Shown here one piece after another: positions 8,310 to 14,832 of a stretch of 44,075 nucleotides of DNA. Where the stretch lies: NCBI GenBank assembly GCA_016196035.1, contig JACPYM010000083.1, positions 1 to 44,075 on the forward strand, in the 5' to 3' direction. The notes under the pieces are model-generated. The model saw nothing but the letters and a program-made list of their open reading frames with translations. It did no database searches and was not told the origin of the DNA. Position numbers and translations under genes: made by a program. Positions within the stretch are counted from its first letter, which is position 1; each line of letters starts with the position of its first letter. The stretch is from Acidobacteriota bacterium (GTDB lineage Bacteria > Acidobacteriota > Blastocatellia > RBC074).

Positions 8310-8891
8310 CTATTTCTTTTTCAACATGCTGCACGCGTCAAAGGCTTGCGTCGGATTGACCGCCGTGTTGCCTTCTTCGATAAACGAAAGTTTGCCTTCT
8401 TTATCCACGACGAAGGTCGCGCGTGAGCCGTAACCGGTCGCTTCGTTGAAGACGCCGTAATCTTTGACGGTTTTGCGCGAGACGAAATCGCTCAGGATCG
8501 GGAAGGAAAGGCCTTTGGTTTCGGGCGCGAGTTCTTCTGACCAATGTTTAAGCGCGGGCACGCTGTCCACGCTGAGGCCGAAAATCTGGGTGTCGGTGTC
8601 TGCGAATTTGGCGAGATCAGCCTGATACGCCTTCATTTCGCGCGTTCAGCCACCGGTGAAGGCCAGTACGAAAACGGCCAGCACGACATTTTTCTTGCCC
8701 CGGAAATCGCTCAGTTTGTAGGTCTTGCCATCCGTGCCCGGCAAGTTGAAATCGGGTGCGACATCGCCAACTTTCAAATTGGTTTTGATCGCGGGCGGCC
8801 TGGGCGCTTGGGCGGCTGGTGCGGGTTGTTGCGCCAGCGCGCCCACACACAAGCTCAGCAACAGGGCCAGACCCAGCATTGGTTTTAGCAT
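8310..8891 (-). CDS. Exported selenocysteine-containing peroxiredoxin (AhpC/TSA family)
   Basis: 193 residues if the TGA at 8646-8648 is read as selenocysteine. Residues 1-21 are a signal peptide ending ALA-Q; then [27 protein letters not shown]-type AhpC/TSA sequence begins. The frame continues without a shift through FTGG-Sec82-TREM, and Sec82 falls on the peroxidatic position of the family motif PxxxTxxC. After it come [21 protein letters not shown], the conserved Arg in [12 protein letters not shown] and a C-terminal ACS with Cys187 as possible resolving residue. The conserved Pro of the motif is Val75. A SECIS-like hairpin follows the TGA at 8631-8610. Expected role: thiol- or thioredoxin-dependent peroxide reduction outside the cytoplasm. 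Alternative: a Cys-to-stop mutation; unlikely given the second such gene at 12809. A naive annotation would give two fragments. Confidence 0.87.
8610..8631 (-). promoter_or_regulatory. Putative bacterial SECIS element of the peroxiredoxin
   Basis: Minus-strand RNA GGCG-U-AUCA-GGC-UGAU-CU-CGCC folds with a GGCG/CGCC lower stem, a small internal bulge with an unpaired U, an AUCA/UGAU upper stem and a GGC apical loop. The loop begins 24 nucleotides after the UGA. The established bSECIS model asks for a short stem-loop with G among the first two loop bases, about 16-37 nucleotides from the UGA; this fits. The folding is by eye. Confidence 0.7.
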
Positions 8892-9067
8892 TTGCGGTTC
8901 TCCTTCGTTTGGTTAAAGGGTTGGTCGGTTAATCGGATTGCGGAAACGCGGCCATTAGACAGCAAGGTACGCGGCGATGCAATCGGCGGTTACAACGCTT
9001 TCCCAAAAGACGAAGCGCCGGCAACCCTCACGGCTCACCGGCGCACACTAACCAGGTTGTTTTGAAT

Positions 9068-11320: not shown

Positions 11321-11508
11321 GCATTTGATGGACCTTGGCAGGCCATTGACACAGAGCCACAAAGAAAAGGCTTGGCCTATCCGAAAACATCTCAGTGTCT
11401 CTGTGTCTCTGTGGCAAAGTTTCCAGCTTTTGCGTAAGTCCTAATTTGCTTTTTTACGGGGCAGCAGAAACAATCCATCCATCAAGCAACATTCAGGAAT
11501 CAACGCTT

Positions 11509-12750
11509 ATGGCCGGAACCATGCTCACATTCGCCGACCGCAATCACCTATCAGCCGCCGCCGCATTGCTGCGCCATGAACGCATCCGCCAGGCCTGCGA
11601 GTTCATCCACACACAGCAGCGCCACCTGACCGACGAACTCATCCACATTTGCGAAATCCCCGCGCCGCCGTTTCAGGAACAAGCGCGCGGACGCTACCTT
11701 GCGCAGCGCTTCAGCGAATTGGGATTGCACAATGTGCACACCGATGCCGAAGGCAATGTCATCGGCTTTTATCCCAGTGAAAGCGAGCAGCCTTTGCTGG
11801 TCGTCTCGGCGCACCTCGACACCGTCTTCCCGGCAGGCACCGATGTCACGGTCAAACGCAGCGGTTCGCGGCTGTGCGCGCCGGGCATTGCCGACGATTG
11901 CGCGGGGCTGGCGGCGCTCATCGGTTTGATTGAAGCGCTGAAGGCCGCGCAGCTTCGTCCGCGCGGCGGCCTCGCCTTTGTCGCGACAGTGGGCGAAGAG
12001 GGTGAAGGCGATTTGCGCGGCGTGCGCTATCTGTTCAGCGCGGGCAAGCTGGCGGGGCGGGTGGCTGGCTTTATCTCTTTTGACGGCACGGCCATCGAAT
12101 TCATCACGCATCAGGCGCTGGGGTCGAAACGCTTTCGCATCACCTTCGCCGGGCCGGGCGGGCACAGTTGGGGAGACTTTGGCGTCGTCAATCCGGTGCA
12201 CGCGCTGGGCCGCGTCATCGCCAAGCTGGCCGATTACCGCGCGCCTACGGAACCGCGCACGACTTACAACTGCGGGCGCATCGAAGGCGGCGAATCGGTC
12301 AATGTGATTCCCGAATGGGCGCGGCTGGATGTGGATTTGCGCTCGGCGTCAGAATTGGAGTTGGGCCGCCTGGAAGATTTCCTGTTGCGCGCGGTGCAAC
12401 AGGCGGCGGAAACGGAAAACAATTTGCGTGCGGCGGCGGGCAAGACGCTATCGGTAGAGGTGCAAATGATCGGCCACCGGCCTTCCGGGGAAACGCCCAA
12501 AAATGCGCCGCTGGTGCAATGCGCCATCGAGGCTTCGCAAGCCTTGGGCATCCGGCCACTACTCAATCGCGCTTCGACCGACGCCAACATCCCGATCAGC
12601 CTTGGCATTCCCGCCATCACGCTGGGCGCGGGCGGCGTGTCGGCGGATTCGCACCGGCTGACGGAATGGTATGACCCGATTGGCCGAGAGTTGGGTTACA
12701 AACGGGCGCTGTTGTTGATCTTGGGGATGACCGGGATAGCCCCCTCGTAA
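11509..12750 (+). CDS. M20 family zinc metallopeptidase
   Basis: 413 residues from ATG 11509 ([12 protein letters not shown]), with AGGAA upstream; ATG 11521 is an alternative. The co-catalytic zinc residues of M20 peptidases are visible: HLDTVFPAG (His and Asp), [10 protein letters not shown] (bridging Asp) and [10 protein letters not shown] (the Glu pair). The dimerisation domain begins near [13 protein letters not shown]. The C-terminal block [22 protein letters not shown] is typical of the M20/peptidase T-like branch. Expected role: cytoplasmic hydrolysis of short peptides or N-acyl amino acids. Its TAA stop sits inside the left arm of an inverted repeat, so the gene ends at a bidirectional hairpin facing the DsbA-like gene. 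Confidence 0.9.
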
Positions 12751-12802
12751 TCGCGAATTTATTCGTTACGGACTGGCGCGAATAAATTCGCGACCACGAG
12801 GG
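12742..12802. terminator. Bidirectional hairpin between convergent genes (GCGAATTTATTCG family)
   Basis: CCCTCGT-aa-TCGCGAATTTATTCG at 12742-12765 pairs with CGAATAAATTCGCGA-cc-ACGAGGG at 12779-12802, with only the two central aa/cc positions unpaired. It separates the convergent M20 peptidase (+) and DsbA-like gene (-). There is no long T-run, so termination is inferred from its position. Related arms occur at 8133-8172 and 36522-36566. Confidence 0.65.
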
Positions 12803-12808
12803 AGACCG

Positions 12809-13453
12809 TCATTTCCGTTGAATCGTAATCGGCACAAAAGGCGCTGGCTGCGTCACCGCCACCGGCTCCCCGTTGCGAACCGCTTCAAGCGCGCGTAACA
12901 AAGTCGCCTCTTCCTGCACGCCAAACAATACCTGTCCGCCCAGCACAAACGCAGGGACGCCGCGCACGCCGTAAGTTTCCGCAATCAACAAATCCTCGTC
13001 CACTTCCTCGGCGTGCCGTTGCGCGCGCAAGGCCGCACCCAAATCCGCCGCATCCATGCCCAAACGCCAGGCCAGTTGTTGCAGCGTTTCAATCGCGCCA
13101 ATGTCCAGGTCTTCGACAAAATGAGCACGCAGAATCGCGGCGTGGAATGCGGCAAAGCGGCCTTGTGCGCGCGCCCAGGCGGCGGCTTCATGTGCGTAAC
13201 GGGTGGGCGGCAGGCGCGAGGGTTGCCGCATCTCAACGCCCAGCGCCGCTGCGCTGGGCAGCACGGTATCGCGCCAGCCCTGGTTCATGGCCTCACCGCG
13301 CGGTTCCATACGGGGCGGGCCTGCCTGGCGCAATTGATAGGCGCGCCAGACGACTTCAGCGCCAGTCTTGGCGGCAGCCTGGTTGAGGGCGACCTGCCCC
13401 AGCAAACAAAAGGGTCAGGTGTAATCGGAAAAAACCTGAATGACGATGGACAT
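12809..13453 (-). CDS. Selenocysteine-containing DsbA/FrnE-like oxidoreductase
   Basis: 214 residues if TGA at 13415-13417 is read as selenocysteine. From ATG 13453 the frame gives MSIVIQVFSDYT-Sec13-PFCLLGQVALNQ, so the active site is U-P-F-C where DsbA-like proteins have CxxC. The rest is an FrnE-type thioredoxin fold with a helical insert and a cis-Pro loop (YGVRGVPAFVLGG). No signal peptide, so it is probably cytoplasmic like other FrnE proteins. A hairpin with an AGGUC loop follows the UGA at 13399-13387. The start lies six bases after the stop of the VWA gene, so the two are probably co-transcribed. Without Sec decoding only an ORF beginning at TTG 13405, lacking the first strand and active site, would be seen. 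Confidence 0.88.
13387..13399 (-). promoter_or_regulatory. Putative bacterial SECIS element of the DsbA-like gene
   Basis: Minus-strand RNA GGGC-AGGUC-GCCC: a four-base-pair GC stem, extendable by a G.U pair, with a five-base loop that starts 20 nucleotides after the UGA. As remembered, the E. coli fdhF SECIS loop is AGGUCU about 17 bases after its UGA, so loop sequence and distance are both very similar. The fold was judged by eye. Confidence 0.75.
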
Positions 13454-13459
13454 GAATGC

Positions 13460-14518
13460 TTAGCCTTTGGGTGCGTAATACCCGGCGCGGGCGCGCGCGC
13501 TGAAGCCGGGCTTTTTGATTTTGACTGCGAGTTTGCGGAAGCCGCCGTCGCGCGCTTCGTTGCTGGAATAGAAACCGAGAATGTATTGCGTGCGCAATTC
13601 ATCGGCCAGTTTGGCAAAGGCCGCGTCCAGTTCTTTCAGCGCGTGATCGGAATTGTCGTCGGGCGCGGCGTCGTCGTTGTCGGCCAGTTTGGGGTGATAA
13701 ACCTCGCCGCCCGTCTCTTTGGTCAAGGCGGCCAGCGCGCGTTCGGCGGCCAGATCGCGCAGGTTTTGCGAATTCCACAGACCGCCGGTGTAAATGGCAT
13801 AGATCACGCCATCCACGCCCTGCGTCTGTTGCAAGGCGAGTTTCAGCGTCTTGGCGCTGGTCGTGTCGCCGCCGTCGGTGATGAGCACGATGATGCGGCG
13901 GCCCCGCGCGGGTTTCAGGTAATCGGCGGCCAGATAGATGCCGTCATACAGCGAGGTCGCGCCCCCGGCTTTGAGTTGTTTGGTGGCGTTGGTGAGCAGC
14001 GGCACGCGGTTGGTGAATTCCTGCTGCAAGACGACATCGGTGGCAACGGAAAAGAGCGCGGCCTGATCCTGTGGGCGAATCAGGCGCTCGAAAAATTTGG
14101 CGGCGGCTTTCTTTTCAAAGGCCAAGCGCGGCGCCACGCTCAGGCTGGTGTCAAAGAGCATCACCAGACGCAATGGCGCTTCGCTCTCGCGCGTAAAGAT
14201 CGTCAGTTCCTGCGCGGCGCCGTCTTCCAGCACTTCAAAATCTTCGCGCTGCAAATCGCTGGCTTTGCCGCCCGCCGGAGCAATGATATTCGTGACGACG
14301 GTGACCAGATCGGTGTTGATGCGGATGGCTTCTTCTTTTTGCTCGGGCGCGGTTACCGGCGGTTTGGGCAGGGGTGGCAAGGGGACGGGTTTGACCGGGC
14401 GCTTCTCGTCTTGTTTGTTGCGGCCGCTCTGAGCATGCGAATGAAGCAGCGGCACGCACAACAGCACGCTCAGCAAACAACCCAACATTGCACTTGCCAA
14501 CCTGTTTGGCTTCGTCAT
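13460..14518 (-). CDS. Secreted VWA-domain protein, acidobacterial VWFA-related type
   Basis: 352 residues with an N-terminal signal peptide (SAMLGCLLSVLLCVPLLHSHAQ), then a Pro/Lys-rich linker and a short N-terminal domain (IRINTDLVTVVTNII, EDFEVLEDGAAQELTIF) typical of the VWFA-related family frequent in Acidobacteria. The MIDAS residues are intact: DTSLS, Thr in GGATSLYDG and Asp in LITDGGDT. Such proteins bind a metal and a protein partner; the partner is unknown. The mature part has no cysteine, so it is not an evident substrate of the downstream DsbA-like protein. The C-terminus FRKLAVKIKKPGFSARARAGYYAPKG is the usual family ending. Confidence 0.9.
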   Translation of the reverse strand: MTKPNRLASAMLGCLLSVLLCVPLLHSHAQSGRNKQDEKRPVKPVPLPPLPKPPVTAPEQKEEAIRINTDLVTVVTNIIAPAGGKASDLQREDFEVLEDGAAQELTIFTRESEAPLRLVMLFDTSLSVAPRLAFEKKAAAKFFERLIRPQDQAALFSVATDVVLQQEFTNRVPLLTNATKQLKAGGATSLYDGIYLAADYLKPARGRRIIVLITDGGDTTSAKTLKLALQQTQGVDGVIYAIYTGGLWNSQNLRDLAAERALAALTKETGGEVYHPKLADNDDAAPDDNSDHALKELDAAFAKLADELRTQYILGFYSSNEARDGGFRKLAVKIKKPGFSARARAGYYAPKG

Positions 14519-14590: not shown

Positions 14591-14832
14591 CCAATGAGGT
14601 TAAGCTTAGGGTTTTCCGCCCAAAGCCCTGAAAGGGCAGAGTTTAGTAGCCCAGGGCAACGCCCTGGGTCAACCAAACACCGTATGGTACCAAGCCCTGA
14701 AAGGGCGGAATAAACACACGCAATTTCGCCCTTTCAGGGCTTAATAATCATTGCGCGCCGGGTCCAGGGGCGTTGCCTCTGGCTATTCAATATCGCCCTT
14801 TCAGGGCTTCAGGTTTAACTTAACCTCATTGG
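14591..14832. repeat. Composite palindromic element with CCAATGAGGTTAAG ends
   Basis: The ends CCAATGAGGTTAAG (14591-14604) and its inverted copy CTTAACCTCATTGG (14819-14832) bound 242 bp that hold three GCCCTGAAAGGGC or GCCCTTTCAGGGC palindromes and an inverted pair AGCCCAGGGCAACGCCCTGGG. The inner units match those at 1-146. No ORF is present. It resembles a non-autonomous palindrome cluster between the VWA gene and trmFO, and it fills most of the 350-base gap 14519-14868. Confidence 0.65.

Follow-up and report, generated by a model that had tools for sequence, protein, structure and literature searches.

The window, by which we mean the whole 44,075-nucleotide stretch of Blastocatellia (Acidobacteriota) DNA that was analyzed (contig JACPYM010000083.1), contains a minus-strand reading frame that continues through an in-frame TGA codon between a von Willebrand-type VWA-domain gene and a convergent peptidase gene. 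The features of this locus are as follows.

12809..13453, minus strand: coding sequence of the predicted FrnE/DsbA-family selenoprotein, 214 residues (P0001), with Sec13 in U-P-F-C and a terminal TGA at 12811-12809
13451..13453, minus strand: ATG start codon, six bases past the TAA of the VWA gene
13415..13417, minus strand: UGA codon 13, inferred to encode Sec, at the position of the catalytic nucleophile
13406..13408, minus strand: codon of Cys16, the presumed resolving Cys of UxxC
13386..13400, minus strand: candidate apical hairpin of a bacterial SECIS, GGGGC-AGGUC-GCCCU, nucleotides 18-32 counted from the U of UGA
13460..14518, minus strand: upstream VWA-domain gene, possibly cotranscribed with the selenoprotein gene
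11395..12750, plus strand: convergent M20 peptidase gene, a neighbor found in the same orientation beside the Cys homolog L021

From 13453 to 12809, the frame consists of the ATG, 11 codons, the UGA, 201 codons, and the final TGA. Its ATG (13453-13451) is in frame with the TAA of the VWA gene (13462-13460), and no other in-frame ATG, GTG, or TTG lies between that TAA and the UGA. By eye, no clear Shine-Dalgarno sequence precedes the ATG. The mechanical list of open reading frames holds only a truncated frame with a TTG start (12809-13405). The original prediction had extended this frame through the TGA to an ATG six bases past the VWA gene, and its coordinates are exact, with the gene on the minus strand. 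It had also held that the added N-terminal part supplies both the missing first strand and the catalytic residue, and we concur; a protein started at the TTG would lose both. The 12 codons ahead of the UGA encode MSIVIQVFSDYT, followed by U-PFC, and the four nearest relatives have MPxxxQVFSDYV ahead of the UGA/Cys position. Standard gene calling shortens such genes, leaving the first strand and the catalytic residue outside the listed frame.

The protein matches Pfam DSBA (PF01323) over residues 5-189 (profile positions 2-190 of 191; E = 5.9e-31), and its best sequence match among solved structures is Deinococcus radiodurans FrnE (E = 3e-21). Elsewhere in the genome there is one second DSBA match, which has no internal stops. 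Alignment with FrnE/DsbA proteins, suggested earlier as a check, places residue 13 on Cys22, the nucleophilic Cys that opens the CPWC of D. radiodurans FrnE (numbering from PMC8945050). With the 17-row alignment A4 as input and the TGA modeled as Cys, AlphaFold confidently predicts a DsbA fold that is nearest to Deinococcus FrnE (mean pLDDT, 90.7; pTM, 0.88). In this model, UPFC occupies positions 13-16 and a helix spans residues 14-30, which puts the active site at the N terminus of helix 1. Val166-Pro167, presumably the place of the cis-Pro loop, is invariant in all 17 rows of A4.

In a Foldseek search of the PDB, FrnE entries take the first five places (TM-score by query length, 0.78-0.83; rmsd, 3.5-10.8), followed by SCO1869 (a probable DsbA oxidoreductase) and, further down, by HCCA isomerase and kappa GST. 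The gene might accordingly encode an enzyme of the kappa-GST/HCCA-isomerase type rather than a disulfide oxidoreductase, as 3fz5, 2imd, and kappa GST resemble the model in fold, too, with TM-scores only somewhat lower than those of FrnE. By E-value, however, these three rank below FrnE, and the U/C-P-x-C pair is retained in 17/17 rows of A4; we regard this alternative as unlikely and continue with a FrnE/DsbA-family oxidoreductase. The NCBIfam model NF041057 (Rcas_1661 family thioredoxin-like [seleno]lipoprotein) matches residues 84-190 with 34.9 bits, far under its cut-off of 190.

The window protein shares membership of the DsbA family with D. radiodurans FrnE (DR_0659; PDB 5cnw and others), the CPWC of which aligns with its UPFC, but it differs from that Cys-type enzyme in its predicted active-site Sec. 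DR_0659 is predicted to be cytoplasmic, a role in regeneration has been proposed for its C-terminal CxxxxC, and some FrnE proteins have no such motif (PMC8945050). Cys16 is the sole Cys of the window protein, and the C-terminal CxxxxC is therefore absent, which places the protein outside the DrFrnE subgroup. Thus, the label “FrnE-like” given in the original prediction fits the fold and the best match, but not the C-terminal motif of the Deinococcus protein. No signal peptide was seen by eye, and the protein is probably cytosolic.

A protein search of the class (162 genomes, E ≤ 1e-15) yielded 23 loci in 22 genomes. In 17 of them, the matched stretch contains exactly one in-frame stop, a TGA, and this TGA always stands for the U of U-P-[FYW]-C; the remaining six have no in-frame stop and carry TGT or TGC at the same codon. 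This distribution bears out the earlier argument that a TGA at the catalytic Cys is more than chance. Randomly placed stops in relatives were sought as well, and within the matched stretch all 17 UGA loci have a stop at codon 13 only. In one of them (L043), a TGA ends the frame about 147 residues in, perhaps owing to a frameshift.

A profile search of the phylum (396 genomes, eight candidates scored per genome, E ≤ 1e-30) gave 18 loci, 13 of them with TGA; five of the 18 (in G000, G010, G032, G091, and G146) repeat places already found. Two loci of this search also contain TAG or TAA, namely, those in G146 (the same as L041, where the TAG is the end of the gene) and G495. The order and family searches covered one and the same set of 11 genomes. 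A single-protein search of genome and viral contigs found no relative, its peptide patterns (one of which spans the UGA) probably being too specific. When the alignment of the part after UxxC was searched against named genome contigs, 77 loci were recovered. The Sec form occurs in records named as Acidobacteria, Pyrinomonadaceae, Chloracidobacterium, Methylomirabilota, Gemmatimonadetes, Nitrospirae, Desulfobacteraceae, Anaerolineales, and others, many of which are metagenome bins, so that some organism labels may be binning errors. The Cys form was found under Microvirga, Massilia, Halomonas, Myxococcus, several Bacteroidota, and other names. Typing of 90 loci by a motif expression gave 33 UxxC, 44 CxxC, one DxxS, and 12 undecided, four of which (L061, L062, L071, and L122) show U by eye.

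For the tree and the hairpin counts, 21 duplicates were removed (106 to 85), leaving 85 distinct homologs, 36 with Sec and 49 with Cys. Rows were dropped as (i) repeat fetches (L050-L053 and L060), (ii) matches that stop short of the motif (L113 and L134), (iii) rows with Asp for Cys (L128-L130), and (iv) rows missed by the motif expression (L066 and L071, both with U). A maximum-likelihood tree of the 85 rows, built with the trait column masked, implies at least eight Sec/Cys changes; well-supported branches alone force seven, and shuffled labels need about 28. The clade of five that includes the window gene (support, 100/100) comprises two Sec and three Cys rows, and the Sec homolog L022 pairs with the Cys homolog L023 (support, 97/71), the two genomes sharing one genus code. 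As a separate observation, one genome of the set has a second, distant Sec copy of 33% identity (L028; G006:C30:13612-14199), and the close homolog of the window gene in that genome (L021) has Cys.

These data bear on the idea that the TGA is a nonsense mutation or a sequencing error in an ordinary Cys-type FrnE gene, which would then be dead or start at the internal TTG. The Cys form is indeed common (49/85), TGT or TGC becomes TGA in one step, and the Sec locus L043 does end early. However, 36 of the 85 distinct homologs have UGA at the same codon, the matched stretch contains no second stop in any of the 17 UGA loci that the class search recovered, the 12 codons ahead of the UGA remain recognizable in relatives, and the TTG start would cost the protein its first strand and catalytic residue. 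We therefore consider such a mutation or error very improbable and favor decoding of the UGA as an amino acid.

The machinery for decoding as Sec was sought in the host genome (G000; 9.59 Mb in 139 contigs), as the original prediction had proposed, and tRNA-Sec(UCA), SelA, SelB, and SelD were all found. The tRNA-Sec match scores 66.9 bits (cut-off, 47) and is called tRNA-SeC with anticodon UCA by ARAGORN, which was run on eight tRNA-Sec candidate loci; ARAGORN identifies a second covariance match that exceeds the cut-off (49.9 bits) as a tRNA-Ser. Because 5 of 14 control genomes also pass the tRNA-Sec covariance model, the model alone is not specific, and the ARAGORN anticodon call decides. 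SelA scores 478 bits, SelB 363.7 bits (cut-off, 242.25), and SelD 362.1 bits (cut-off, 125), each of these cut-offs being passed by 2 of the 14 controls. Among the class genomes with a Sec locus, 15/17 have SelB over the cut-off, and the two others are G124 (67% complete) and G126 (75%). This co-occurrence says little, because SelB exceeds the cut-off in 132 of the 162 class genomes.

An open frame under the assumption that TGA encodes a residue cannot by itself name that residue, and the UGA could in principle be read as Trp or Cys through reassignment of the code or another UGA-decoding tRNA. Against this stand the terminator of the gene itself, which is TGA, the presence of tRNA-Sec(UCA), SelA, SelB, and SelD, and the homolog column at codon 13, which in the readable rows holds Cys, apart from three distant rows with Asp (L128-L130), and never Trp. 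Such a reading appears extremely improbable to us, the least likely of the alternatives weighed here, and Sec is the residue assumed below.

Two further UGA-bearing frames were noted in this genome. The selD gene (L048; G000:C88:97181-98110) has its own in-frame UGA, in NCAGUASKL. Within the window, a peroxiredoxin-like frame (8310-8912, minus strand) has a UGA at 8648, in FTGGU-T; in NCBIfam, it matches PrxU and other peroxiredoxins best, in every case under the cut-off. The original prediction had spoken of another TGA-bearing redox frame in the same 44 kb. Such a frame is present, and the peroxiredoxin-like one with its UGA at minus 8648 is probably the first selenoprotein meant there.

In bacteria, a SECIS element is a hairpin directly after the UGA with a G among the first two loop bases. 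In 51 nucleotides starting at the UGA or Cys codon, we looked for a stem of at least 4 bp and a loop of 3-8 with a G in the first two loop bases, a geometry picked after the result of an earlier folding analysis had been seen. That analysis, of 33 nucleotides after the codon, had compared 17 Sec with 6 Cys loci (mean z, -1.07 versus -0.14; p = 0.004); the geometry-based scan, on the larger set, separates the two forms better. A hairpin is present in 34/36 Sec versus 25/49 Cys homologs, and one of -5 kcal/mol or better in 28/36 versus 7/49. The two Sec rows in which the scan found no hairpin are L059 and L120, and the seven Cys rows with a hairpin of -5 or better include L023 (-7.0) and L033 (-8.1), which are closely related to Sec rows. 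After subtraction of the synonymous-shuffle mean, the energies of Sec and Cys rows differ (Mann-Whitney p = 9e-9, for rows that are not independent), and p ≤ 0.05 against a row's own synonymous shuffles was reached by 11/36 Sec rows and 1/49 Cys rows. Comparison of seven supported, independent Sec/Cys pairs links the hairpin to Sec in 4.7 pairs on average, and about 0 show the opposite, a contrast short of significance (median p = 0.0625).

The window hairpin can be extended to nucleotides 13-35 (13383-13405) with a 2-nucleotide bulge. Taken alone, it is not significant against its own synonymous shuffles (p = 0.095), its 39-nucleotide fold does not surpass that of dinucleotide shuffles (z = 0.31), and no Rfam match was found over the hairpin. 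Because the window hairpin is not significant alone and some Cys relatives have hairpins too, the putative SECIS assignment is one for the family and not for the window sequence by itself.

Apart from the convergent M20 peptidase gene common to the window and L021, nothing in the neighborhood of the gene points to a functional link. Among ten neighboring open reading frames scanned at five loci, six have Pfam matches, and these are without a common theme. Between the two convergent genes, an inverted repeat (TCGCGAATTTATTCG...CGAATAAATTCGCGA) lies at 12751-12793, perhaps a two-way terminator or a repeat. Beyond the VWA gene, two matches to the Rfam family “Acido-Lenti-1” (RF01687), at 14624-14668 (minus) and 14764-14808 (plus), lie 95 bp apart as a minus/plus pair (39.2 and 36.0 bits; cut-off, 37). 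With 150 of 3095 candidates scored, the genome holds at least 132 Acido-Lenti-1 matches at E ≤ 0.01, 66 of which form 33 minus/plus pairs, 81-116 apart (end to start). Other neighbors within 250 bp, among the matches scored, comprise three minus/minus pairs and no plus/minus or plus/plus pair. The locus L034, of another family, also has a minus/plus pair (42.3 and 29.2 bits). Acido-Lenti-1 thus looks like a REPIN-style dispersed inverted-repeat doublet and not like a single sRNA gene.

We conclude that the gene very probably encodes a 214-residue FrnE/DsbA-family thiol-disulfide oxidoreductase in which Sec is inserted at UGA codon 13 by means of tRNA-Sec(UCA), SelB, and a downstream hairpin. 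The basis of this conclusion is computed: the frame is conserved on both sides of the UGA, Sec and Cys exchange at one codon, the Sec machinery is present, and the predicted fold fits. The conserved frame, the UGA/Cys codon of the relatives, and the Sec machinery likewise uphold the original proposal of a DsbA/FrnE-like selenoprotein with U-P-F-C. Decoding, the function of the SECIS, location, redox direction, partner, and substrate are all part of the mechanism that we infer. In it, UGA codon 13 would be read as Sec by tRNA-Sec(UCA) and SelB under the guidance of the hairpin just downstream. At the beginning of helix 1, the selenolate of Sec13 would attack a substrate disulfide or an oxidized thiol, and Cys16 would resolve the intermediate as an Se-S bond (the two roles being argued from PMC8945050). 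A thioredoxin-type or low-molecular-weight thiol may then reduce the Se-S bond. A selenolate is ionized at neutral pH and is the better leaving group, and hence Sec should speed the exchange.

A search of the open-licence literature for FrnE, COG2761 (which we take to be the FrnE COG), or Blastocatellia together with selenoprotein found no title that reports a Sec-FrnE clade. DsbA-like selenoproteins as such are well documented. Nine DsbA-like UxxC sequences, filed under COG2761, come from the Sargasso Sea set (PMC1088965, 2005), others were described in bacterial genomes (PMC1794560, 2006), and the GOS set contains “DsbA 1” (63 listed), “DsbA 2,” and “DsbA 3” (PMC2398784, 2008); two reviews treat them as well (PMC9312934 and PMC13188914). 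For Acidobacteria, four selenoproteins of three families have been counted (PMC1794560), and three known selenoproteins are listed for Occallatibacter riparius (PMC12013277). A search for the term Blastocatellia in PMC13188914 and PMC12013277 gave no hit. The published DsbA-like selenoproteins, as described in these sources, have Sec first in UxxC, a DSBA domain, and many Cys homologs; UxxC and PF01323 are shared by the window protein, as compared by description. The window clade may be among the published DsbA-like sequences (e.g., NIP15863.1). In all likelihood, then, the gene encodes a real selenoprotein of a UxxC DsbA-like family known since 2005, and what it adds is a clade in Blastocatellia with recent Sec/Cys switching.

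More tentatively, and with the odds somewhat against it, the homologs could represent a distinct Sec-FrnE clade in which selenium is ancestral or long-standing across Blastocatellia and beyond, the enzyme being a Se13/S16 disulfide reductase or isomerase that works without the C-terminal relay of Deinococcus FrnE. If this is true, Sec/Cys switching between close species would provide a natural test bed for the benefit of selenium to an enzyme. Natural Sec/Cys pairs of one enzyme, such as L022 and L023, are useful for asking what selenium contributes. With SelB over the cut-off in 132/162 of its genomes, the class appears to merit a systematic search for selenoproteins.
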